This document shows, piece by piece, positions 1 through 23,603 of a stretch of 32,786 nt of DNA. Made by a program: the position numbers and the translations under genes. The stretch is taken from assembly GCA_023150915.1 (NCBI GenBank), contig JAKLKA010000078.1, positions 1-32,786 of the forward strand. Direction: 5' to 3'. Position 1 is the first letter of the stretch. Each line of letters opens with the position of its first letter. This DNA is from Polyangiaceae bacterium (GTDB taxonomy: Bacteria; Myxococcota_A; Polyangia; Polyangiales; Polyangiaceae). Under the pieces are notes generated by a model. It did no database searches. It was not told the DNA's origin and saw nothing but the letters and a program-made list of their open reading frames with translations.

Positions 1-98
1 TTCGACTCTCGGCAGATTCGAACCACCTCTGCCTTGTACTCCGCCTTGAATTGGCGACGCTTCTTCGTCGGGTCTTTGGACATTCTCGGTCGGGCCAT
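1..98 (-). CDS. IS3-type transposase OrfA, N-terminal fragment (runs off the window)
   Basis: Only the first 32 codons are in the window. The product begins MARPRMSKDPTKKRRQF and continues KAEYKAEVVRICRES. That is the typical start of an IS3-family OrfA: a short basic N-terminus followed by the F-x-x-E-x-K-x-E-V-V-x-x-C opening of the HTH that binds the IS ends. A purine-rich GGATGAGG lies about 5 bases before the ATG. In intact elements OrfA is fused to the DDE integrase OrfB by a programmed frameshift; OrfB would lie beyond the left edge. The gene points away from the jet operon, so it does not obviously drive it. Confidence 0.72.
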   Translation of the reverse strand, partial: MARPRMSKDPTKKRRQFKAEYKAEVVRICRES

Positions 99-139
99 TT
101 TGCCTCATCCTTCCTGTCCAAGAAATCGGGGGAGGGTCA
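1..139 (-). mobile_element. terminal part of an IS3-like insertion sequence
   Basis: The minus strand here opens an IS3-type OrfA reading frame (codons from 98 downwards). Upstream of that start codon, between about 113 and 139, lies a stretch that reads on the minus strand TGACCCTCCCCCGATTTC then TTGGACAGG. It begins with TGA, as ends of several IS3-family groups do. Homology to the Wadjet protein JetA starts immediately after position 139, so I place the element boundary there. The rest of the element, its other inverted repeat and any target-site duplication lie outside the window. The family assignment rests on the OrfA start and the look of the end, not on a database match. Confidence 0.7.
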
Positions 140-594
140 TCCGCGGCATCGAGCAGCGGGCGCTCGGCCTGAGGGGGCGCGTTCCCGAAGGTCTTGTGAC
201 CGAGATCGATGCGCCGAGTCCGGAGCTCGGCCTTCCGCTCGAACGACCGCTCTTCACGCCACTTCGGGAGGTGTGCCTATCGAGCGACGGACTGATCGCA
301 GGAGAGCAGGATTTCACTTCAGATGCCCTGTTCGAGCAGATCTACGTGGACAAGGCGCTGCTTCGCTCCCACATCAATCGCGCGCTGCAGACGCGGAGCC
401 AGGTGTCACTGGCGGAGCTGGTTCAGGCGACCCCGCTCGAGCATGGCCTGGCCGAGCTGGTCGCGTACATGAGCCTCGCTGTCGATGATCGGCGCGCGAT
501 GATCGATGAGAATCGCTCGGAGGCGGTGGCGTGGACCGATTCCGAGCAGACGCTGCGCCGCGCGACCATGCCCCTAGTGATCTTCACACGATGA
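140..594 (+). pseudogene. jetA: jetA C-terminal fragment (Wadjet, DUF3375), truncated by an IS
   Basis: About 150 codons survive of a family whose members are normally near 480-500 residues. The fragment opens with IRGIEQRALGLRG and contains two conserved blocks of the JetA tail: LFEQIYVDKALLRSHI, and VSLAELVQATPLEHGLAELV. It ends at a VIFTR terminus. In known type I Wadjet systems JetA is the kleisin-like subunit that bridges the JetC SMC-type ATPase and binds JetB. The missing N-terminal two thirds should lie on the far side of the IS or be deleted. The open frame runs back into IS sequence to position 34, but that extension reads as transposon, not as JetA. The TGA stop overlaps the ATG of jetB by four bases (ATGA). 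Confidence 0.85.
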
Positions 595-1193
595 CGGTAC
601 CCATGAATGAGGAACGCTCGACTCCGGAACTCTCACGGCCGCTCGTGGCACTGATGAAGGGCGTCACCCATCGCGACGCGGACGAGGCGCTGTGGCAAGC
701 GCTGCTCCAGGTCCAGTCTCAGGTGCGCGACTACGTCGCCGTGCTCGGCCTCGAGCTCGTGCTCGACGAGGCGGAGGGCTACGCCTACCTGCACCAGCGT
801 CCCCAGGCCCCTGGGGACCCCGAGCTTCCACGTCTCGTACCGCGCCGTCCGCTGGGCTATCACGTGAGCCTGCTCTTGGTCGCGCTGCGCAAGCGCCTGG
901 CCGAATTCGACGCCAAGAGCGGCGACACGCGCTTGGTGCTCGGGCGCGCCGAGTTGGTGGAGTTGGTGCGTGTGCTCCTGCCCGAGTCGGTGAACGATGC
1001 GAAGTTCCTCGACCGCATGGACACCCACGTGAACAAGGTCGTGGAGCTCGGTTTCCTGCGGCGCTTGCGCGGGCAAGACGATCGCTTCGAGGTCCAGCGG
1101 ATCTTGAAGGCGTTCGTCGACGCGGAGTGGCTGAGCGACTTCGACCAGCGGCTGGCCGCGTACCTCGATCACGCTACGGAGGTGGGGCGGTGA
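591..1193 (+). CDS. jetB: Wadjet subunit JetB (DUF4194, KITE/MukE-like)
   Basis: This is a 200-residue protein. The order after a JetA tail and before a JetC-type ATPase, and the size, match the DUF4194 subunit of type I Wadjet. That subunit is a winged-helix KITE protein, comparable to MukE, which loads onto the kleisin. Visible segments include the YHVSLLLVALRKRLAEFD helix, an LVLGRAELVELVRVLLPE segment, and a C-terminal FLRRLRGQDDRFEVQRILK stretch typical of the second winged helix. I chose ATG 591 because it overlaps the jetA stop as ATGA; ATG 603 is a possible alternative. The gene ends in a GTGA overlap with jetC, so translation of the whole operon is probably coupled. Loss of most of jetA may reduce both its translation and its function. 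Confidence 0.88.
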   Translation: MTVPMNEERSTPELSRPLVALMKGVTHRDADEALWQALLQVQSQVRDYVAVLGLELVLDEAEGYAYLHQRPQAPGDPELPRLVPRRPLGYHVSLLLVALRKRLAEFDAKSGDTRLVLGRAELVELVRVLLPESVNDAKFLDRMDTHVNKVVELGFLRRLRGQDDRFEVQRILKAFVDAEWLSDFDQRLAAYLDHATEVGR

Positions 1194-4100
1194 AAGGGCG
1201 CACCGGCTTTCGCCTCGAGCGCCTCGAAGTGCTCAACTGGGGCACTTTCGACAAGCGCGTCTGGTCGTTGGACGCGCGCGGGGAAAACACGCTGCTCACC
1301 GGGGACATCGGCTCGGGCAAATCCACGCTCGTCGATGCCCTCACGACGCTTCTCGTCCCGCCCGGCCGGCTGGCGTACAACAAGGCCGCGGGGGCCGAGG
1401 CGAGGGAGCGCACGCTCCGCTCGTACGTGCTCGGCTATTACAAGTCGGCCCGCGACGACGCCGGTGGGGGCGCGCGCGCCGTGCCGCTGCGCGGCCGCGA
1501 CGACTACTCCGTGGTGCTCGCGCGCTTCGGCAACGCGACCCTCGACGAGACCGTCACCCTGGCTCAGGTCTTCTGGTCGAAGGACGCCGAAGGGCAGCCC
1601 TCACGCCTGTTCGTGCTCGCCGGCCAAGCGCTGAGCATCGCCGAGCACTTCTCCAATTTCGGCACTACCGTGGGCGAGCTCCGGCGGCGCCTGCGCCGCG
1701 ACGGGTTCGAGCTCTACGACAGCTTTTCGCAATATGCCGCCTCGTTCCGGCGGCGCATGGGCATCGAGAACGAGCAAGCGCTCGAGCTCTTTCACCAGAC
1801 GGTTTCAATGAAGTCGGTCGGGAACCTGACCGACTTCGTGCGCCAGCACATGCTCGAGCCCGCGCCGATGGCCACGCGCGTGGTGGCACTCATCGGCCAC
1901 TTCGACGACCTGAACCGCGCCCACGAGGCCGTCGTCAAGGCGCGCTCGCAGATCGAGCGCCTCGAGCCGCTCGTCTCGGACTGCGGGCGGCACGCAGAGC
2001 TGACCGGCGAGGTCGAGCGCCTGCGCGCCTGCCGCGAGGCGCTGCGCCCCTGGTTCGCGCGCCAGAAGTCGGCGTTGCTCGAGCGCCGTCTGCAGAAGCT
2101 CTCGACCGAGGCCGCGCGGGTGGAGGAACGCCTCGCGAGCGCGGAGGCGTCGCGCGAGGCGCTTGGGCGCGATCGCGACGCGCTGCTCGCCGCCATCTCG
2201 GACAACGGCGGAGACCGCATCCAGCGCTTGAAGGACGACGCGGCGCGAGCCGGAACGGAGCTCCGCGAACGCCAGGAGCGCGCTCGGAAGTACGACGACT
2301 TGGCGAGAGGAGCTGGCCTCTTGCCTGCTTCGAATCCGGACGTGTTCCGCGAGAACCAGTCCGCCGTGGTCCGCGCGCTCCCCGAAGCGGAGGAGACCCG
2401 CGCACGCGTCCAGAACGAGCGGACTGAAGCAGAGGTCGGCTTCCGCGATCTGCGCGCGCGCCATGAGGAGGTGGCGCGCGAGCTTTCGTCGCTGCGCGGC
2501 CGAGCCTCGAACATTCCGGCGCGCATGCTGGAGCTGCGCGCTGATCTGTGCGAGGCCCTCGGCGTCGAGGAGAAGAGCCTGCCCTTCGCGGGCGAGCTCC
2601 TGCAAGTGCGCGAGGACGAGCGCGCGTGGGAAGGCGCCATCGAGCGGCTGCTCCACAGCTTCGGGCTTTCCCTGCTGGTCGCCGACTCCGCCTACGCGAA
2701 CGTCGCGGAGTGGGTCGATCGCACCCACCTGGGCGGGCGTCTGGTCTACTTCCGGGTGCGCCCGCAGCGGGCGGGGGAGAGCGTAACGAGCCCGGCGTCG
2801 CTGGTGCGAAAGCTCGCTATCAAGCCGGACTCCGACTTCTACGCCTGGCTCGAGGCAGAGGTAGCGCGCCGCTTCGACTATGTCTGCTGCGACAGCCTGG
2901 ATGCGTTCCGGCGGGAGCAACGCGCCATCACACGCGCAGGACAGATCAAGGACCGCGGCGAGCGGCACGAAAAGGACGACCGGAACCGTCTCGAAGATCG
3001 CTCGCGCTACGTGCTCGGCTGGTCGAACCAGGCGAAGATCGACGCGTTCGAGCGACAGCGGCGAGAGCTCGAGACCCGGATACAGGCGCTCGCGGGCAGC
3101 ATCACACGCCTGGACTCCGAGCTGACCGCCAACGCCAAGCGCCGAGATCAGCTGAGCGCCCTGGCCTTCTTCGAGAGCTTCCGCGACCTCGACTGGAGGC
3201 CCATCGCGGCGCAGATCCAGGCCATCGAGGACGAGCGCCGCCAGCTCGAGTCGGAGTCCGACGTGCTCCGCACGCTCCAGGCTCAGCTGTCCGGGGTCGA
3301 CGAAGCGCTGGCGCGCACGCGCGAAGAGCTGATGTCGGCAAAACAGGAGCTTGGCTCGCTCGAGACCAAGAGGGGGGACGCGACGAGGCAACGCGACGAG
3401 TGCAGCGCTTTGCTCCAGGCGACGGCACCGGCGTTGCTCGCGGCGCTCGACTCGCTGGGCGCGTTGGTGGAGGAGGCGCTGAACGACCGCGTGCTCACCA
3501 TCGAGTCAAGTGACAACCGCGAGTACGATGTGCGCGCCTGGCTGCAAGCGAAGATCGACGCGGAAGAGAAGAAGCTCGCCCGCCTGGTGGAGAAGATCGT
3601 CCAGGCGATGCAGGACTATCGGGCGCGGTACCCTGCCGAGACGCGGGAGGCGGACGCGAGCGTCGCGGCGGCCGGCGAGTACCGCGGGATGCTAGAGCGG
3701 CTGCGGGGCGACGACCTACCGCGCTTCGAGCGCCGCTTCAAGGAGCTGCTCAACGAGAACACGATCCGCGAGGTCGCGAACTTCCAGTCGCAGCTCCTGA
3801 AGGAGAGGCAGACCATCCACGAGCGCATCGAGACCATCAACCGCTCGCTCCACGAGATCGACTACAACCCGGGCCGCTACATGGTGCTCGAGCCGGAGGG
3901 AACCACCGACGTGGAGATCCGCGATTTTCAGCGCGACTTGCGCGCATGCACCGAAGGGGCGCTCACCGGCTCCGACGACGACGCCTACTCGGAGGCCAAG
4001 TTCCTGCAGGTCAAGCACATCATCGAGCGCTTTCGCGGCCGTGATGGCATGACCGAGCTCGACAAGCGCTGGACCGCAAAGGTCACCGACGTCCGGGCGT

Positions 4101-4519
4101 GGTTCACCTTCTCGGCGTCCGAGCGCTGGCGGGAGGACGGGCGCGAGCACGAGCACTACACGGACTCCGGAGGCAAGTCCGGCGGGCAGAAGGAGAAGCT
4201 CGCATACACCGTGCTGGCAGCGAGCCTCGCCTACCAGTTCGGGCTCGAATGGGGCGCGCCGCGCCCGCGATCGTTCCGCTTCGTGGTCATCGACGAGGCG
4301 TTCGGCCGCGGCTCAGACGAGTCCACTCGCTACGGGCTCGAGCTCTTCGACCGCCTCCAGCTCCAGCTCTTGATCGTGACGCCGCTTCAGAAGATCCACG
4401 TCATCGAGCCGCACGTGTCCGCGGTCGGCTTCGTCCACAACGAAGAGGGCCGGCGCTCGATGCTGCGCAACCTGACTATCGAGCAGTACCGCGCGGAGCA
4501 GGCGGCGCGCAGCGCGTGA
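1190..4519 (+). CDS. jetC: Wadjet SMC/MukB-like ATPase JetC
   Basis: This is a 1109-residue SMC-type ATPase. The P-loop is GDIGSGKST at residues 38-46, close to the N-terminus. A long Glu/Arg/Leu-rich coiled-coil region fills the middle, with a hinge-like globular segment near residues 460-620. The C-terminal head carries the ABC signature SGGKSGGQKEK at about 993-1003 and the Walker B stretch FVVIDEAFGRG with D1035-E1036. In type I Wadjet, JetC dimers extrude DNA loops and detect small circular plasmids. GTG 1190 is chosen because it overlaps the jetB stop as GTGA. The longer open frame starting at 692 is the out-of-frame shadow of jetB. All ATPase motifs are intact, so this gene itself shows no sign of decay. 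Confidence 0.93.
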   Translation: MKGRTGFRLERLEVLNWGTFDKRVWSLDARGENTLLTGDIGSGKSTLVDALTTLLVPPGRLAYNKAAGAEARERTLRSYVLGYYKSARDDAGGGARAVPLRGRDDYSVVLARFGNATLDETVTLAQVFWSKDAEGQPSRLFVLAGQALSIAEHFSNFGTTVGELRRRLRRDGFELYDSFSQYAASFRRRMGIENEQALELFHQTVSMKSVGNLTDFVRQHMLEPAPMATRVVALIGHFDDLNRAHEAVVKARSQIERLEPLVSDCGRHAELTGEVERLRACREALRPWFARQKSALLERRLQKLSTEAARVEERLASAEASREALGRDRDALLAAISDNGGDRIQRLKDDAARAGTELRERQERARKYDDLARGAGLLPASNPDVFRENQSAVVRALPEAEETRARVQNERTEAEVGFRDLRARHEEVARELSSLRGRASNIPARMLELRADLCEALGVEEKSLPFAGELLQVREDERAWEGAIERLLHSFGLSLLVADSAYANVAEWVDRTHLGGRLVYFRVRPQRAGESVTSPASLVRKLAIKPDSDFYAWLEAEVARRFDYVCCDSLDAFRREQRAITRAGQIKDRGERHEKDDRNRLEDRSRYVLGWSNQAKIDAFERQRRELETRIQALAGSITRLDSELTANAKRRDQLSALAFFESFRDLDWRPIAAQIQAIEDERRQLESESDVLRTLQAQLSGVDEALARTREELMSAKQELGSLETKRGDATRQRDECSALLQATAPALLAALDSLGALVEEALNDRVLTIESSDNREYDVRAWLQAKIDAEEKKLARLVEKIVQAMQDYRARYPAETREADASVAAAGEYRGMLERLRGDDLPRFERRFKELLNENTIREVANFQSQLLKERQTIHERIETINRSLHEIDYNPGRYMVLEPEGTTDVEIRDFQRDLRACTEGALTGSDDDAYSEAKFLQVKHIIERFRGRDGMTELDKRWTAKVTDVRAWFTFSASERWREDGREHEHYTDSGGKSGGQKEKLAYTVLAASLAYQFGLEWGAPRPRSFRFVVIDEAFGRGSDESTRYGLELFDRLQLQLLIVTPLQKIHVIEPHVSAVGFVHNEEGRRSMLRNLTIEQYRAEQAARSA

Positions 4520-5712
4520 AGACCGAGTCGGACTGGACTACGCCGGCCGACGCGAAGGCCGAGGTGCAGCGGCTCTGGGATCGCGGGCGCCTGCTGGCGC
4601 CGGACTCCGCCGGCCTGCCCCCGTTCCCGCTGAAGCTCACGCTGCGCCGGCCCGGCAGCCGCACCTTGCTCAACGAGTTTGACCGGGTGCGCGACTGGAT
4701 CAAGGCGCTAGAGGCCGGCGCGCGCAGCGCCACCGGGTCGGGGTACGACATCGTCTGGGCCGACGTCGACCACCGCCAGCTTGGCAAGAACCGCGTTCCG
4801 GACGGCCTGGTCGTACCGACGCACGAGGACGCGCTGCGGTCCATCGGCAAGCTGCGCCAAGCGGAGCGCTTCTCGGCCCTCGCGAACGCCACGTTGGCGC
4901 GCTTCCCGTCGCTTCGCGACTGGCTCGGCAAGAAGCCGCTGCTCGCGCTCGACCACGCGCAGGACTGGGAGCGCGTGCTCGCCGTGCTCGGCTGGTTCTC
5001 CGACCACCCGCGGGCCGGCGTGTACCTTCGCCAGATCGATGTCGCCGGCGTGGACACCAAGTTCATCGAATCGCACAAGGGACTGCTCGTCGAGCTACTC
5101 GACCGCGTGCTGCCGTTCGAGAGCGTCGACCGCACCGCAGGGCGGCGCTTCGAGGCCCGCTACGGCCTGCTGTCGAAGCCGCCACTCGTTCGCCTGCGCA
5201 TGCTCGACACTGATCGGCGCATCGGGGGTCTCTCGGACATCTCCACGCCGGTCTGCGAACTCGCCGGAGTCGAGCCGCCGGTCGAGCGCATCTTCATCAC
5301 CGAGAACGAGGTCAACGGTCTTGCCTTCCCGCCGATGCCGGCTAGCGCGGTGATCTTCGGTCTGGGCTACGCCCTCGAGCCGCTCTCGGAGCTCCCCTGG
5401 CTCGGTCGAAAAGAGCTCCACTACTGGGGCGACATCGACACCCACGGTTTTGCGATCCTGGACCGCTTGCGTGCTTCTTTTCCCGGCGCGCGCTCGCTGC
5501 TGATGGACCGCGGGACCCTGCTCCGCCACCGTAGCCTCTGGGTTGAAGAGTCGGCGCGCCACCTCGGTCCCCTGGCGCGCCTCTCGCCCGCCGAAGCGGA
5601 CCTCTATGCCGACCTCGCCGCGGACCGCATCGGGCCGAGCGTGCGACTCGAGCAGGAGCGGATCGGGTTCGCGTGGGTCGAAGCAGCGTTGGCCGGTCTG
5701 CTCAGCGGGTGA
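4516..5712 (+). CDS. jetD: Wadjet nuclease JetD (DUF3322-DUF2220, Toprim)
   Basis: This is a 398-residue protein. JetD is the nuclease of type I Wadjet. Its C-terminal Toprim domain, related to topoisomerase VI/Spo11, cleaves plasmid DNA once the JetABC motor has extruded it. The metal-binding residues are visible: the glutamate block ITENEVN (E263, E265) and the DxD block GDIDTHG (D306, D308, followed by H310). The N-terminal ~190 residues form the DUF3322 arm. GTG 4516 overlaps the jetC stop as GTGA, a third coupled junction in this operon. The gene appears complete and catalytically intact. Without full JetA it would be expected to lack its recruiting complex. A free JetD could be harmless or slightly toxic; the sequence does not say. 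Confidence 0.92.
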   Translation: MKTESDWTTPADAKAEVQRLWDRGRLLAPDSAGLPPFPLKLTLRRPGSRTLLNEFDRVRDWIKALEAGARSATGSGYDIVWADVDHRQLGKNRVPDGLVVPTHEDALRSIGKLRQAERFSALANATLARFPSLRDWLGKKPLLALDHAQDWERVLAVLGWFSDHPRAGVYLRQIDVAGVDTKFIESHKGLLVELLDRVLPFESVDRTAGRRFEARYGLLSKPPLVRLRMLDTDRRIGGLSDISTPVCELAGVEPPVERIFITENEVNGLAFPPMPASAVIFGLGYALEPLSELPWLGRKELHYWGDIDTHGFAILDRLRASFPGARSLLMDRGTLLRHRSLWVEESARHLGPLARLSPAEADLYADLAADRIGPSVRLEQERIGFAWVEAALAGLLSG

Positions 5713-6016
5713 CGATGCTGCCGACCCGCGACGCCGGAGCTCGACGCGTCGAGCACTGCCGTTACGCCGAGGTGGGTACTTCTCGGGGGGACTCACGAAA
5801 TTGAGTACCCCCGTGACGTGGTGACCGTCAGCAGCGAGAAGCGCCCGCGCTTCGTGTCGGGCGCGGAGGCGGTGGGCGTCCACGAGTTCACGCACTGCAC
5901 TGAATGCGGCGGGGATTCGCCCGCGTTCGTGCCTCCGAGACAGAGGTCGATGACGTGAGCTCGACGGTATCGACTCTGCGGGGACGCGGAGGAGACGACG
6001 CGCTATACTCTGCTCC
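5713..6016. other. 304-bp intergenic region between Wadjet and the MntA/HepT pair
   Basis: I see no convincing gene here. It holds a 7-bp inverted repeat GGGTACT/AGTACCC at 5774-5780 and 5804-5810, with a 23-base loop. A small GC hairpin lies at 5838-5853 (GAAGCG, loop CCCG, CGCTTC) without a T tract. The putative -10 box of the antitoxin gene is at 6004-6009. Read on the minus strand, the 5774-5812 segment (GGGGGTACTCAATTTCGTGA and onwards) faintly resembles ends of IS21-family elements, so it may be a transposon scar; this is a weak impression. A frame at 5821-5958 is open for 45 codons but resembles nothing I recognise. Confidence 0.5.
6004..6009 (+). promoter_or_regulatory. putative -10 box of mntA, implying a leaderless mRNA
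   Basis: TATACT is a near-perfect -10 hexamer ending 7 bases before GTG 6017, so transcription would begin at or next to the first codon. No Shine-Dalgarno sequence fits between them. The -35 region at the usual distance is not recognisable (GC-rich), so the promoter call rests on the -10 and its position. Confidence 0.45.
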
Positions 6017-6310
6017 GTGGACCGCGAAGTGGCATTCCAGCGACTTTCCGAACTGCTGCCGACAGCACGCGCACGTTTCGGCGTGCGCGACCTCGCGGTG
6101 TTCGGCTCGGTGGCCCGCGGCGAGGCTCGGCACACGAGCGACGTGGATGTGCTGGTCGACTTCGTGGGTCCCGCTAATTTCGACGGATTCATGGGTCTCA
6201 AGATCTTCCTCGAGGAGAATCTTGGTGTCCGGATTGACTTGGTGACCCGGGCTGCGCTCAAGCCTCGGTTGCGCGAGCGGATTGAGGCCGAGGCTCGACG
6301 TGTCGCGTGA
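6017..6310 (+). CDS. mntA: MntA-type minimal nucleotidyltransferase antitoxin
   Basis: This 97-residue protein has the nucleotidyltransferase signature GS-x10-DxD, seen as GSVARG followed by SDVDVLVDF. A third acidic residue lies in GVRIDLVT, completing the catalytic triad of the polymerase-beta fold. MntA antitoxins inactivate their HEPN partner by adding AMP groups to a tyrosine in the toxin's Rx4HxY motif. The next gene encodes exactly such a partner and overlaps this one by 11 bases. Start: GTG 6017 is the only plausible start upstream of the conserved core, and it is preceded at 7 bases by TATACT, suggesting leaderless translation. The position between a Wadjet operon and a tRNA fits a defence island. 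Confidence 0.9.
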   Translation: MDREVAFQRLSELLPTARARFGVRDLAVFGSVARGEARHTSDVDVLVDFVGPANFDGFMGLKIFLEENLGVRIDLVTRAALKPRLRERIEAEARRVA

Positions 6311-6662
6311 CGAGGGCGCGTGCGTCGCCGACATGGTCGAGGCTTGCGCCCGCATCAGGGAGTACACATCAGGGATCGACGCAGTTGCACTCCGCGCTGA
6401 CCGCAAGACCCTCGACGCCGTGCTTCGGAACCTGGCGGTGCTCGGCGAGGCGGCGAAGCGCGCGTCAGGGTCGGTTCGCGCGCGAGCGCTGGACGTTCCG
6501 TGGCGAGAGATCGCCGGAATGCGCGACGTGGTGATCCACGACTACTTCGGCGTGGATCTCGACATCGTCTGCGATGTCGCGCTGGTCAAGATCCCGTCCT
6601 TGCAAGGCTCACTCGAAAGGCTTCTTCTCGAGCTCGGCAGCGACCGCTCGGATGGCGGCTGA
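6300..6662 (+). CDS. hepT: HepT-type HEPN toxin (DUF86)
   Basis: This is a 120-residue all-helical HEPN protein. The RNase/active-site motif Rx4HxY is present as RDVVIHDYFGVD, with the tyrosine that MntA is known to modify two residues after the histidine. An upstream LRNLAVLGEAAKRAS segment is typical of DUF86 proteins. GTG 6300 is taken as the start; it overlaps mntA by 11 bases. A TTG at 6282 is an in-frame alternative that would lengthen the overlap. In characterised pairs the toxin acts as an RNase on tRNA or mRNA. As the motif is intact, I expect an active toxin held in check by mntA. The gene is followed by 91 bases before the tRNA terminator. Confidence 0.9.
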   Translation: MSRDEGACVADMVEACARIREYTSGIDAVALRADRKTLDAVLRNLAVLGEAAKRASGSVRARALDVPWREIAGMRDVVIHDYFGVDLDIVCDVALVKIPSLQGSLERLLLELGSDRSDGG

Positions 6663-20241: not shown

Positions 20242-21135
20242 TCAATCGGCGCACGCGGCGTGGCGCACACTGACCCCACGGGGCGGCATTTGGCGAAACA
20301 CCCCTTCGGGAAGTGGCGGGTTGTGCACGACTTCTTTGTTCCGGAGCACGAGCTCTTGATCCGTGTCGGGGGTCACCAGGCGGACGCGCTGAGGCACCTC
20401 GGCGCTGCACGCGGGCCCGCTGGGCAAGAGGGTGGGCTCGAGCCCTTCCGGATCCTTGCGGGGCGGCGCGGTCTTCACCGTCTCGTGGTCGGCAAGGTAC
20501 GCGCGATACAGGTCCATGCCGTGCTGGGCCACCTGGACCTCGAGCACACGGACGCGTTGCTTCTGCCAGGGCTCGGCCCAGTCGCCGGGGTGCGGCTCGA
20601 GGTGGATCTCTTGCGTGGCCGAGTGCTTGCTGGTCACCCTGAGCACGTATTCGCCGCCCTCCCAGGCCAGGGTGGCTTGCCCGGGCTCGTGCACCAGGAC
20701 CGGCGCCTCGCCCCGCAACAGCTGAGAGAGCGCGAACGGGGGCACCGGCACCTGGGTGAAACGCGCCACGTTGCAGGTGTTGGCGGGCCCCCGCAAGAAC
20801 GTCTTCTCTTTCAGGTCGTAGAGCGCGAAGTCACGACCGTCGGAGGTCAAGGTCGAGAGCGTCACGCCGAACGGGCTGAACACATCGAAGCGCAGCGCGT
20901 CGGGCAACATGCTCATGTAGAGCACGTTGCCGCGCACCCGACCGCGCTCGCCGAAGTAGTCGAGCTTGGCCTCGCCCTGAACGCCGCGACTGCAGGCGTA
21001 GGTGGCGTGCATGCGCTCGAGCGCGTCGTGGGCACTGGGAAATCGAGATGGCGGCGGTGAGCGCGAGCAGCCGGCGAGCGCAGCGGAGAGCCCACCGAGC
21101 CAGACCAGCCGCCGCGCGTTCACCGGGCGCTTCAT
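20242..21135 (-). CDS. outer-membrane-type lipoprotein, LolB/DUF4292-like
   Basis: This is a 297-residue protein with a clear lipoprotein signal: basic start, hydrophobic segment and the lipobox SAALAGC, cleaved before the cysteine. The mature part reads like the half-barrel fold that binds lipids in LolB, LolA and related DUF4292 proteins: ALERMHATYA, GEAKLDYFGERGRVRGNVLYM, ALRFDVFSPFGVTLSTLTSDG and FALYDLKEKTFLRG. This family link is my reading of the pattern, not a search. It starts at ATG 21135, overlapping the HARE-HTH gene's stop by four bases (ATGA), so it is expressed with that gene. A short GC stem plus seven T residues after its stop may be a weak terminator before the arginase-like gene. 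Confidence 0.78.
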   Translation of the reverse strand: MKRPVNARRLVWLGGLSAALAGCSRSPPPSRFPSAHDALERMHATYACSRGVQGEAKLDYFGERGRVRGNVLYMSMLPDALRFDVFSPFGVTLSTLTSDGRDFALYDLKEKTFLRGPANTCNVARFTQVPVPPFALSQLLRGEAPVLVHEPGQATLAWEGGEYVLRVTSKHSATQEIHLEPHPGDWAEPWQKQRVRVLEVQVAQHGMDLYRAYLADHETVKTAPPRKDPEGLEPTLLPSGPACSAEVPQRVRLVTPDTDQELVLRNKEVVHNPPLPEGVFRQMPPRGVSVRHAACAD

Positions 21136-22832
21136 GAGCCTCGGAGCGCCTCGAGCAAGTCCAGATCGGGCACTGGAAGGCTGACGCGCGTCTCGATCAC
21201 CGCGACGCCGTGCTCTTCGCACAGCCGCGCCAGACCCACGCCGTCGACCAAGGCCACCGGCGCCGCGCCGGGGGCCGAGGCCTCTTCGCGGGCGCCGGAC
21301 AGGACCTGACCGGTGGTCAAGAGCCAGCCCGCGGCGGCCGGCCCATAATGGTGGAGCGCGCCCCGCAGCTCGGTGACGCGTTCGCGCCCGATCTCGCGGC
21401 CGTCGCGCCGCACCACGATGGCGGTGGGCACGCTGCCGCTGGGGCCCCGCGCCACGGCCGAGAGGTGAAGCTCGGAGCCCGGTGAGCCGGGACGACGCAC
21501 CGCCTGGATGTCGGTCATTCCGATGCGCTCGAGCAGCAGGCAGATGAGCTCGCCCAGAGCGCGGTGTGGCAGGTCTTGGAACCGCCGCACCAGAGAACGG
21601 CGCACCGCCTCGCGGTAGCGGTCGGCTTGCGCCGCGATCTCGCGCTCGAGACGCGCGGCCTCTGGATCCAGAGACCAATCGGTCAGCGCCAGGCGCCCAC
21701 CGCTGATCCGGAAGCGGACACGCTGACCGGACGCGCTGCGGCGCAGGTTGTCTGCCCGGGCCGCAGCCAAGATCTGGCCTTGGGCCTGTTGGAAGTCGCC
21801 GCTGAGCCGCCCGCGCCGCTGCGCGAGATCGGCCAGCTTCTGCGCGCCGACCGGCCCGCCCCCGCGATCGAAGGTGGCCAAGAGCGACGCCACGGCGTCA
21901 GCCAGCGGCCGCCCCGCGAGCTCGTCGAGCGGCGCCCCGCCGTCGTCCCGGCGGTCGCGATCCCGGTCGCGATCCCGATCACGCTCACCCCGGTCGCGAT
22001 CGCGATCCCGGTCGCGATCTCGCCCGCGCTCACGGTCGCGACCGCGATCGGCGCCGCGATCGGCGCCGCGATCGGCGCCGCGATCGGCGCCGCGATCGGC
22101 GCCGCGATCGGCGCCGCGATCGCGCTCTTCCGGCTCACCTTCGCGCTCGATGTCGATCGGGACGTCGGCCGGTGCGTCGGACACGGTGTACCCGGGCAGA
22201 TCGTCGCCGCCGTTGCGCGTCTCTTCACGCTCGCTGCCGCGACCGCGGCGGCGGCGGCGACGACGGCGACGGTTCGCGTCACCCTCGACCCCTTCTTCTT
22301 CACCCTCGGCCTCTGCCTCGGGGCGTCCGAAGATGGGCAGGTCGTCGTCTTCTTCGGCTTCGAACAGGTCGCTGGCTGCGGCAGCGCGCTGCCTTCGCGC
22401 CAGCTCTTCTTGGTCGGCGTTCGCCGCCGGAGCCTCTTCGCTCTCTTCCTCGTCCGGGCTCTGGCCGGGCGCTGAGCGCAGCAGCTCTTCTTCTTCGTCT
22501 TCGTCGCCCTTGCTCGAGCTGGGCAGCTGCGACAGGTCGATGGTCGCGTGCTTGGCGATCTCGAGCGCGGGGGTGCGGTCGGCCAAGCCCTTGTCGATCG
22601 TGGCCTGATCCCAGTCCCTGAGCGCGAAGACCCCAGGCTTGATCCGGACGAGGGGATTGTCTTTTTCCCCCTTCTTCACCAGCGCTGCGAGCCGTGCCCC
22701 CATGGTCACCTCGGGGCTCTTGCCCACGTGGCTCAGCAGGTTCTTCTCGATGGCGACGTCCGTGATCTCCTTATAATGAAGGGGCTTGCCCACGAGGCGC
22801 AGGACCTGCGCCGCAGCTTCCGTAAAAGTCAT
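21132..22832 (-). CDS. HARE-HTH protein with repeat linker and degenerate Mrr-like nuclease domain
   Basis: This is a 566-residue, three-part protein. Residues 1-75 (MTFTEAAAQVLRLVGKPLHY, then KEITDVAIEKNLL) are a HARE-HTH winged helix, as in RpoE delta and ASXL proteins. Residues about 90-300 are disordered: acidic Glu/Asp runs, a nine-arginine cluster (NRRRRRRRRRG), then GADR and RD repeats. Residues 424-566 look like an Mrr-type restriction-endonuclease fold: LICLLLERIGMTD, then ELRGALHHYG, LLTTGQVLS and VALVDGVGLARL. The usual catalytic QxK is VVRR and the acidic strand reads SELHLS, so nuclease activity is doubtful and DNA binding more likely. ATG 22832 matches the family start. The frame is open upstream to 23486 but that is a shadow of the macrodomain gene. 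Confidence 0.82.
   Translation of the reverse strand: MTFTEAAAQVLRLVGKPLHYKEITDVAIEKNLLSHVGKSPEVTMGARLAALVKKGEKDNPLVRIKPGVFALRDWDQATIDKGLADRTPALEIAKHATIDLSQLPSSSKGDEDEEEELLRSAPGQSPDEEESEEAPAANADQEELARRQRAAAASDLFEAEEDDDLPIFGRPEAEAEGEEEGVEGDANRRRRRRRRRGRGSEREETRNGGDDLPGYTVSDAPADVPIDIEREGEPEERDRGADRGADRGADRGADRGADRGADRGRDRERGRDRDRDRDRDRGERDRDRDRDRDRRDDGGAPLDELAGRPLADAVASLLATFDRGGGPVGAQKLADLAQRRGRLSGDFQQAQGQILAAARADNLRRSASGQRVRFRISGGRLALTDWSLDPEAARLEREIAAQADRYREAVRRSLVRRFQDLPHRALGELICLLLERIGMTDIQAVRRPGSPGSELHLSAVARGPSGSVPTAIVVRRDGREIGRERVTELRGALHHYGPAAAGWLLTTGQVLSGAREEASAPGAAPVALVDGVGLARLCEEHGVAVIETRVSLPVPDLDLLEALRGS
21952..22114. repeat. coding tandem repeats (12-bp GADR units and Arg-Asp units)
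   Basis: There are six head-to-tail copies of CGCGATCGGCGC at 22043-22114, encoding GADR repeats on the minus strand. A less regular run of 6-bp CGATC(C/G)-type units lies at about 21952-22040 and encodes alternating Arg-Asp. Both unit lengths keep the frame, so copy number can change without breaking the protein. Confidence 0.85.
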
Positions 22833-22845
22833 TCTGAGTCTCTTG

Positions 22846-22867
22846 GTTCTTGGAGAACATCGGGTTC
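22846..22867. promoter_or_regulatory. three alternating GTTC/GAAC half-sites (putative operator)
   Basis: GTTC at 22846-22849, GAAC at 22855-22858 and GTTC at 22864-22867 are each separated by exactly five bases, giving a 9-bp period. The last two lie within a perfect 6-bp inverted repeat GAGAAC-N5-GTTCTC (22853-22869). The array begins 14 bases upstream of the HARE-HTH ATG, a position suited to repression. Confidence 0.45.
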
Positions 22868-22942
22868 TCTCGGGTGGCACGCCTGGGAAGCGCTCATCGC
22901 TCCCGCCTCCGGCAATGCACACACGCGGCCCCGGGCATAGCA

Positions 22943-22958
22943 CGGCCCCAGAGGGCCG
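22943..22958 (-). other. GC hairpin after the macrodomain gene, no T tract
   Basis: CGGCCC and GGGCCG form a 6-bp stem with a 4-base loop, 12 bases past the macrodomain gene's stop on the minus strand. It lacks a T run, so it may be an mRNA-stabilising or Rho-associated hairpin rather than an intrinsic terminator. Confidence 0.35.
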
Positions 22959-22969
22959 GGGAACCGGAA

Positions 22970-23524
22970 TCACCGGAACAGGCCATCGGCGGCGGTTCGG
23001 TAAGCGGCGAGCGTCGCGTCGTCGAACAGCACGAAGCGGATCTGGCGGGGGAACGGACCCTCGCCGATCCCGCGCCGAACCGCCTCGAGCGCCACCGGCG
23101 CCGCGAGGGCCACGGGGTAACCGTAGACTCCGGTGCTGATCGAAGGGAACGCGATCGACTCGAGCTCGCGCCGGCGGCACAGCTCGAGCGCCTTGGCGTA
23201 GCAGCGCGCGAGCAGCTTCGGCGCGCTGTCGCCCTCGCGGTCGTAGATGGGGCCCACGCAGTGGATCACCCACTTCGCTGCGAGATCGAAGCCGGGCGTG
23301 ATCACCGCGCCGCCGGTCTCGAGCACGCCGCCGGGCAGGTCGCGCTTGAGCTCGATCAGCGCCTGCGCAAGGCCGGGACCTGCCGCGCGGTGGATCGCGC
23401 CGTCGACGCCGCCGCCGCCCATCAGCATGGCGTTGGCCGCGTTGGCGATGGCGACGGTATCGCTCGAAACGATGTCTCCGCAGCAAAGCTCGAGGCTCGC
23501 CTCCCCCAGCGCGTAGCGGTGCAT
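22970..23524 (-). CDS. macrodomain protein (MacroD-type ADP-ribose hydrolase)
   Basis: This 184-residue single-domain macro protein binds ADP-ribose; relatives remove ADP-ribose from proteins or deacetylate O-acetyl-ADP-ribose. The signature blocks are intact: IANAANAMLMGGGGVDGAIH (the NAAN and GGGGVDxAIH elements of the MacroD class), WVIHCVGPIYD, and FPSISTGVYGYP in the diphosphate-binding loop. ATG 23524 gives the standard length. It is transcribed ahead of the HARE-HTH, lipoprotein and arginase-like genes with a 137-base gap, so it may or may not share their transcript. It is divergent from the small gene at 23604. Confidence 0.92.
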   Translation of the reverse strand: MHRYALGEASLELCCGDIVSSDTVAIANAANAMLMGGGGVDGAIHRAAGPGLAQALIELKRDLPGGVLETGGAVITPGFDLAAKWVIHCVGPIYDREGDSAPKLLARCYAKALELCRRRELESIAFPSISTGVYGYPVALAAPVALEAVRRGIGEGPFPRQIRFVLFDDATLAAYRTAADGLFR

Positions 23525-23603
23525 GACCGAAACTAAAGAGGATTTCGGGCCGGGCACAAGCCCTGCTCGGCGCCGGCGCGATTTCTGCCGTAAGCTCTGG
23601 GGC

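Follow-up and report, generated by a model that had tools for sequence, protein, structure and literature searches.

Within a 32,786-nucleotide stretch of DNA from a Polyangiaceae bacterium (GenBank assembly GCA_023150915.1, contig JAKLKA010000078.1; the whole stretch is hereafter called the window), a gene on the minus strand encodes a protein in which two HARE helix-turn-helix (HARE-HTH) modules, separated by a long charged linker, precede an Mrr-type nuclease domain that has lost its catalytic site (Table 1). We think it probable that it is one of the core chromosomal proteins of the Myxococcota, derived from a HARE-containing nuclease of the Mrr type that was disarmed once and early, and that it now most likely works as a non-catalytic DNA-binding protein. 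The comparisons below show the architecture, a single loss of the catalytic site, retention of the gene through the order of its host, purifying selection and a mostly housekeeping context. That the protein binds DNA is suggested by the families to which its HARE and Mrr domains belong. Fusions of HARE with restriction endonuclease (REase) domains are already known, and in the literature listings it is the catalytically dead form with two HAREs, maintained across an entire order, that appears to be new.

A catalytic site lost once

The protein had been predicted to join a HARE-HTH module to a degenerate Mrr-type domain lacking the usual QxK, and this is borne out: both domains score above the curated Pfam cut-offs (118 residues align to Mrr_cat, PF04471), and alignment to intact relatives places H456 at the catalytic Asp, V473 at the Gln and R475 at the Lys of the D..QxK site, i.e. 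D and Q are gone and K has become R. As the AlphaFold models are poor, with a mean predicted local distance difference test (pLDDT) score of 50 for the full-length model (five sequences) and 40 for a second model (single sequence), and as the best PDB match, MspJI, is not significant (E 0.057), the assignment to the nuclease fold is based on the Pfam profile and the alignment to intact relatives.

The catalytic columns were counted in 65 rows from the class of the host, namely the window, its relatives L002-L005 and 60 loci hand-picked from the matches in 89 and 97 of 144 class genomes (see below), near-copies included. Both D and Q are missing from 63 of the 65. The D column holds H in 33 rows, Y in 24, K in four, D in two, and S and R in one each, while the K column holds R in 54 and K in five, and the Q column keeps Q in two. 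The two intact rows, L057 and L063, are separate proteins, and genome G116 carries both the intact L063 and a dead counterpart, L064. Three plasmid rows (L006-L008), which stand outside the count of 65, also have intact catalytic residues. A larger set of 88 rows consists of the 65 class rows, these plasmid rows and 20 further loci, of which two belong to the host genome and 18 to other parts of the phylum (L100-L117 were hand-picked from the matches in the phylum sample). Twelve of the 88 are intact and 76 non-catalytic, and D is kept in none of the 76. Q is still found in four of these (L101, L102, L103 and L109) and is replaced by E in L100, K being absent from all five.

On a tree computed from the 88 rows after removal of the catalytic columns, a branch separates the 76 non-catalytic rows from the 12 intact ones, with a value of 96 in the Shimodaira-Hasegawa-like approximate likelihood ratio test (SH-aLRT). 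A second tree of 85 rows, from which the long branches L114, L072 and L007 were dropped, likewise groups the 74 non-catalytic rows (bootstrap 99, SH-aLRT 96; found in 98% of 200 bootstrap trees). Repeated, independent loss of catalysis was rejected in view of this single non-catalytic group on both trees. Most host families form groups on the first tree, with families f2, f3 and f5 mixed. On the 88-row tree no branch set the chosen outgroup apart. The root is assumed to lie on the intact side, which is reasonable because some of the intact rows are proteins encoded on plasmids of distant hosts. One locus whose frame is split over two open reading frames (ORFs), L098, was included in the alignment, the catalytic counts and both trees, and is absent from the linker, neighbour and motif tables and counts.

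Alignment A2 covers 29 of 33 C-terminal stretches, L088 and L090-L092 being excluded for their C-terminal extensions. Such extensions, of low complexity and following the dead domain, were seen in L088 and L090-L093 (families f2, f3 and f5), and that of L088 contains long Asp/Ser repeats.

Retention and purifying selection

Searches with the C-terminal 270 residues matched 89 of the 144 class genomes, and searches with the N-terminal HARE matched 97, each of them finding all 25 genomes of the host's order; a family profile at E<=1e-20 matched 114 of 144 (79 of the 91 of good quality) and every one of the 25 order genomes, with a single match in each, and was without a strong match in 30 of 144, the class figures taking in some intact or unclassified matches. 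The 25 order genomes span five families. In a larger sample of the phylum, the C-terminal profile found matches at E<=0.001 in 119 of 237 genomes, some of these being short C-terminal matches to other Mrr-type proteins, and in 53 of 55 genomes of the order; the two order genomes without a match, G326 and G325, are 90% and 92% complete. In the host genome the same profile gives three matches, among them L118 and L119, two further Mrr-type proteins that keep D..QxK and score as Mrr_cat. The view of the original prediction that the protein is not a restriction enzyme is thus well supported, because the catalytic residues are gone throughout one group, each of the 25 order genomes has one strong match, and intact Mrr-type proteins are encoded elsewhere in the genome.

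A recently acquired mobile gene was considered and rejected, as a pattern scan suited to close relatives only, with the phage collection outside the search, found no relative of the C-terminal part in viral contigs, and the plasmid records that matched were four distant ones. Nor is the distribution that of a patchy, mobile gene in defence neighbourhoods: the gene was matched in all 25 order genomes of the class sample and in 53 of 55 of the larger one, and its neighbours are mostly housekeeping genes, although a Wadjet-like defence system is found ~15 kb away in the window.

The ratios of nonsynonymous to synonymous substitution rates (dN/dS) are low along the whole protein. For the N-terminal HARE, the linker, the second HARE and the dead domain, respectively, they are 0.07, 0.13, 0.07 and 0.03 against L002, 0.06, 0.14, 0.07 and 0.11 against L079, and 0.02, 0.22, 0.15 and 0.17 against L005, where dS is near saturation. 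Every domain is therefore under purifying selection, with the N-terminal HARE held most tightly, and a decayed pseudogene was rejected on account of the intact frame and these ratios. Among 24 members from the order, the mean pairwise identity is 0.74 for the N-terminal HARE, the best-conserved part, 0.46 for the dead domain, 0.43 for the second HARE and 0.20 for the linker.

Two HARE modules and a charged linker

The gene was originally delimited as given in Table 1, and its ends stand; it lies on the minus strand, plus-strand coding of the same interval being ruled out by stops in the frame read. The same layout, start and frame are encoded in all four relatives L002-L005, which argues that the architecture is not due to chance. 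An NCBIfam scan of the 566-residue protein gave nothing above cut-off, and PDB sequence searches with the protein and two profiles returned only linker-type or chance matches.

Table 1. Positions of the gene and its features in the window
Feature	Position	Residues	Strand	Remarks
HARE-linker-HARE-dead Mrr protein gene	21132..22832	566 amino acids	minus	ATG 22832, stop codon 21132
N-terminal HARE-HTH	22611..22832	1-74	minus	Pfam PF05066, 65.7 bits, cut-off 25.9
Charged, low-complexity linker	21906..22610	~75-309	minus	acidic, then Arg run, then GADR/RD repeats
Acidic short motif FEAEEDDDLPIF in linker	22329..22364	157-168 (F157-F168)	minus	kept within the order
Run of nine Arg	22245..22271	188-196	minus	
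GADR-coding 12-bp tandem repeat	22042..22122		minus	6.8 copies, 100% match
Second, divergent HARE-HTH	21684..21905	~310-383	minus	family-level profiles; missed by Pfam here
Mrr_cat-related domain without catalytic site	21219..21572	421-538	minus	PF04471, 60.5 bits, cut-off 21
H456, column of catalytic Asp	21465..21467	456	minus	alignment with intact relatives
V473-V474-R475, columns of QxK	21408..21416	473-475	minus	alignment with intact relatives
5' leader	22833..22952		minus	two inverted repeats; near relatives conserve it more than most of the coding DNA around it

The N-terminal HARE (25 copies of which make up alignment A4) is the only match to PF05066 in the source genome. Among 14 control genomes, PF05066 was found in those of Bacillus subtilis, Lactococcus lactis and Thermus composti, and the match in B. 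subtilis is consistent with the N-terminal domain of RNA polymerase delta being a HARE, which we take it to be. The second HARE was found by iterated profiles, which match at about residues 310-383 of the 566-residue protein and in most relatives. Since the iteration had mixed both HARE copies, the search was repeated with a profile of N-terminal copies only, and 20 of 65 middle segments still matched at E<0.01 and 29 at E<1, compared with none and three, respectively, of 1300 shuffled segments. A profile-profile comparison of the N-terminal and middle HAREs gave a probability of 96.3 (E 2e-9), and Pfam itself detects two HARE stretches in the relatives L053, L100, L115 and L116. The segment of the window protein taken alone has no match, neither to the profile (E 7.7) nor, in 21483-21944, to PF05066, so that its second HARE is visible only through the family. 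In the AlphaFold model, the blocks over residues 301-380 have pLDDT values of 68-81 and show three helices followed by two short strands, a prediction compatible with a winged helix.

The repetitive linker was foreseen, and it is there; the direct connection from HARE to nuclease that was foreseen with it is not, as the linker sits between the two HARE modules. By domain borders it is 238 residues long, with 31% D/E and 20% K/R. Its letters drift while certain features persist. A K/R run of at least seven residues occurs in 40 of 62 dead members from the class and in 21 of 24 from the order. The acidic motif, searched with a strict pattern, is found in 20 of the 24 order members, in none of 4800 shuffled linkers and in none of 38 other dead class members; a relaxed pattern, which has no shuffled control, finds it in 23 of 24. 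The motif reads EEDDDLPIF here, and the host's own SSB protein ends in GGGDDDIPF. This likeness is a weak lead, as the motif is internal and is mostly DDDQPIL or DDDEPIL in other members.

The protein resembles known HARE-HTH/REase fusion nucleases in combining an N-terminal HARE-HTH with a C-terminal Mrr-type domain, and differs from them in that the site is lost in the whole group, the linker is long and charged, and no order genome in the class sample lacks the gene. Intact relatives of this kind exist in the same phylum: L112, L115, L116 and L117 have one or two HAREs and an intact D..QxK (checked with Pfam on the first three). L115 (869-1954), L116 (3283-4785) and L117 (4019-5557) are intact double-HARE Mrr-type proteins, that in L116 with Mrr_N, and are candidate modification-dependent restriction enzymes. 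Literature searches over titles and the starts of abstracts found no account of a dead double-HARE form kept through an order, and the one paper that fitted all terms of one of them, PMC7159879, does not contain the word HARE; the 2012 paper of Aravind and Iyer, reportedly the founding description of HARE, may mention it.

Genomic context and the 5' leader

Downstream, the gene adjoins a lipoprotein-like ORF, which matches nothing in Pfam, and a gene of the arginase family; upstream lie a Macro-domain gene, a small ORF, murB and alaS, and further on DprA, topoisomerase, GidA-family and RelA/SpoT genes. murB is divergent from the HARE gene, with two ORFs between them. The Macro-domain gene (22970-23551) is directly upstream on the same strand, and relatives of it are found upstream in L002, L079 and L080. 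At least two of twelve tested neighbours (alaS, murB, the lipoprotein and arginase genes and others) recur at 10 of 15 other loci from the host family. In other families, a gene for a D-Ala-D-Ala ligase (ddl-like) lies upstream on the opposite strand at 32 of 64 loci from nine families, within 500 bp in 28 of them, the distances being measured to stop-to-stop ORF edges and the identity checked with Pfam on L062, L041 and L073. A LipB-like gene lies downstream at 10 of 13 loci from eight families, as judged by mutual similarity and by Pfam on L059. At L049, L050, L053, L059, L060, L066 and others, in several families, the HARE gene is succeeded in the same orientation by a LipB-like gene, then a Ddl-related ATP-grasp gene and, in some cases, a GNAT acetyltransferase gene. 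The HARE gene thus belongs to an ordinary chromosomal gene order, whose neighbours have changed between lineages.

The 5' leader and the first ~150 coding bases form the best-conserved run in the surrounding 5 kb: four 60-base blocks at 22920-22681 are 97-100% identical to L002 and 92-95% identical to L079. The inverted repeats GGGAGCG/CGCTTCCC and GAGAAC/GTTCTC are present in the window, L002 and L079, and similar hairpins with altered letters are predicted in L080, L005 and L086, those in L085 and L081 not being clear. The z-scores for folding of seven sequences range from 0.26 to -2.54, and an Rfam element was rejected, the leader giving one match at chance level only. An RNA leader or an operator is a possible explanation. 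The conservation continues into the gene, where synonymous differences to L002 are few over the N-terminal HARE codons at 22608-22832 (pS 0.15, compared with 0.42-0.49 elsewhere).

Proposed function and alternative explanations

As the gene persists across a large group of myxobacteria as an ordinary, inherited part of the chromosome, its product is likely to act on DNA of the cell itself and not to destroy that of invaders. The ancestral nuclease, with HARE for binding DNA and Mrr_cat for cutting it, would have been disarmed without being discarded. Its catalytic Asp would have been lost once, early, with Gln and Lys lost too in nearly all members, and the linker between the two HARE modules would have grown long and charged. 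In the present protein the conserved N-terminal HARE may dock on one site, most likely DNA, and the second HARE and the dead nuclease domain may hold DNA without cutting it. A flexible, charged, Arg-rich tether between them would let the two ends act on separate sites, either by bridging or by recruiting a partner through the acidic motif. In the simplest case the protein would hold the cell's own DNA, bridge it, or bring a partner to it; bridging is suggested by the layout, and the protein may have some role in transcription or in nucleoid organisation. A tentative and more specific proposal, for which we see perhaps some chance, is that a nuclease disarmed once, early in the Myxococcota, became a chromosome-organising protein whose two HAREs on an Arg-rich tether bridge the cell's own DNA, whose acidic motif attracts a partner from replication or transcription, and whose synthesis is controlled by its own conserved, structured leader.

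Several observations weigh against a non-catalytic DNA-binding protein of the chromosome. The poor models leave its fold and DNA-binding surface unseen, and the order of charges along the linker varies across the class. HARE-type domains need not bind DNA, as RNA polymerase delta attaches to the polymerase by its N-terminal domain (PMC7749165). The protein matches the PADLOC model PDC-S02, a candidate defence protein, residues 383-560 aligning to positions 205-379 of 390 with 64.4 bits, in a model that gives no curated cut-off; the match leaves out the N-terminal HARE and the linker. A Wadjet-like system with DUF3375, DUF4194/MksE, an SbcC-like ATPase and JetD_C lies at 1-6662, ~15 kb from the gene. 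Moreover, 5 of the 15 host-family loci (L082-L084, L096 and L097) lack the tested neighbours, L096 and L097 being on short stretches, and because neighbours vary between lineages, the context indicates housekeeping without specifying the process. A nucleotidyltransferase and HepT-like pair of the toxin-antitoxin type was also noted beside the Wadjet-like genes, at 5954-6662.

The alternative that survives best, though we regard it as unlikely, is a reader of modified DNA that still serves in defence, its HARE sensing modified or foreign DNA and its dead domain acting as a sensor or as a decoy for phage inhibitors of nucleases. PMC10853773 describes HARE-HTH/REase fusions beside Dnd systems and proposes HARE-HTH as a modification-discriminating module in them; PMC11037411 and PMC8885841 discuss HARE as a possible modification reader, and PMC12839542 proposes inactive REases as sensors or decoys in BREX-related systems. 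The PDC-S02 match and the Wadjet-like genes would fit such a role, and a decoy could protect the two intact Mrr-type proteins of the same genome. NA-iREase1 (PF22722), by its name an inactive REase domain and one found beside NACHT, gives only a weak match of 23.3 bits, below the cut-off of 27, and no NACHT or other NTPase domain was found in the 566-residue protein by Pfam. However, a defence gene would hardly be expected in all 25 order genomes sampled, with groups that follow host families and mostly housekeeping neighbours, and no NTPase of the defence type lies directly beside the gene in the window. Defence genes usually come and go, and we count this against the explanation.

It is quite improbable, in our estimate, that the protein is a delta-like accessory factor of transcription, in which the N-terminal HARE would bind RNA polymerase and the charged linker would compete with nucleic acid. 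The comparison is with RNA polymerase delta, described in PMC7749165 as a folded N-terminal domain of 90 residues that anchors to the polymerase, followed by a disordered acidic region. Here, too, HARE leads and a charged, disordered region follows, the first third of the linker being net negative in 23 of the 24 order members, and the far greater conservation of the N-terminal HARE would suit a domain constrained by a partner that is itself conserved. Yet the delta layout, with a HARE and then an acidic, disordered tail that ends the protein, is not what is found: the protein has 566 residues, and its acidic stretch gives way to the Arg run, the second HARE and the Mrr domain. Outside the order the acidity is inconsistent, with net charges of +27, +13 and -16 for the first third of the linkers of L072, L073 and L064, which counts against a fixed delta-like acidic tail, and no PDB delta chain was matched by the N-terminal HARE profile at E<=1, in a search that had no positive control.

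Similarly doubtful is a local transcription regulator of peptidoglycan-precursor genes, i.e. of ddl in many families and murB in the host family. The divergent ddl-like and murB genes described above would suit such a regulator, and the conserved leader with its inverted repeats could be its operator. In the stretches available, however, no ddl lies beside the 16 host-family loci (one weak match is 5.9 kb away, in L096) or the three f4 loci, or upstream of the five f7 loci, and a regulator of this kind would hardly need a tether of 240 residues. Finally, an enzyme with a different active site is very unlikely: H or Y stands in the D column in 57 of the 65 class rows and R in the K column in 54, common replacements inside the class, but the pattern breaks outside it, where several groups have F, L, A, V, T or I in the D column and V, T, L, Q or A in the K column, and no alternative site, which the original prediction had named as evidence against itself, is conserved across the whole non-catalytic group. 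This pattern fits a retained contact with DNA better than catalysis.

Conclusions

A restriction-type nuclease that lost catalysis once, and was then retained in all 25 genomes sampled from five families of an order, is here a clear case, and the non-catalytic group extends beyond the class. What was a vague 'degenerate nuclease' becomes a testable question, namely what use large-genome bacteria make of a dead HARE-Mrr protein. For controls of catalysis, the intact cousins L112 and L115-L117 from the same phylum are at hand, and the strong conservation of the N-terminal HARE offers a handle on what bacterial HARE domains read. In the eukaryotic ASXL/HB1 proteins HARE is, according to the family description, part of a chromatin-type protein; to our knowledge they share no further domain with the protein studied here, and the likeness in use is by analogy only. 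If the protein does organise the chromosome, bacteria would have in it a counterpart to the way eukaryotic chromatin proteins use HARE.

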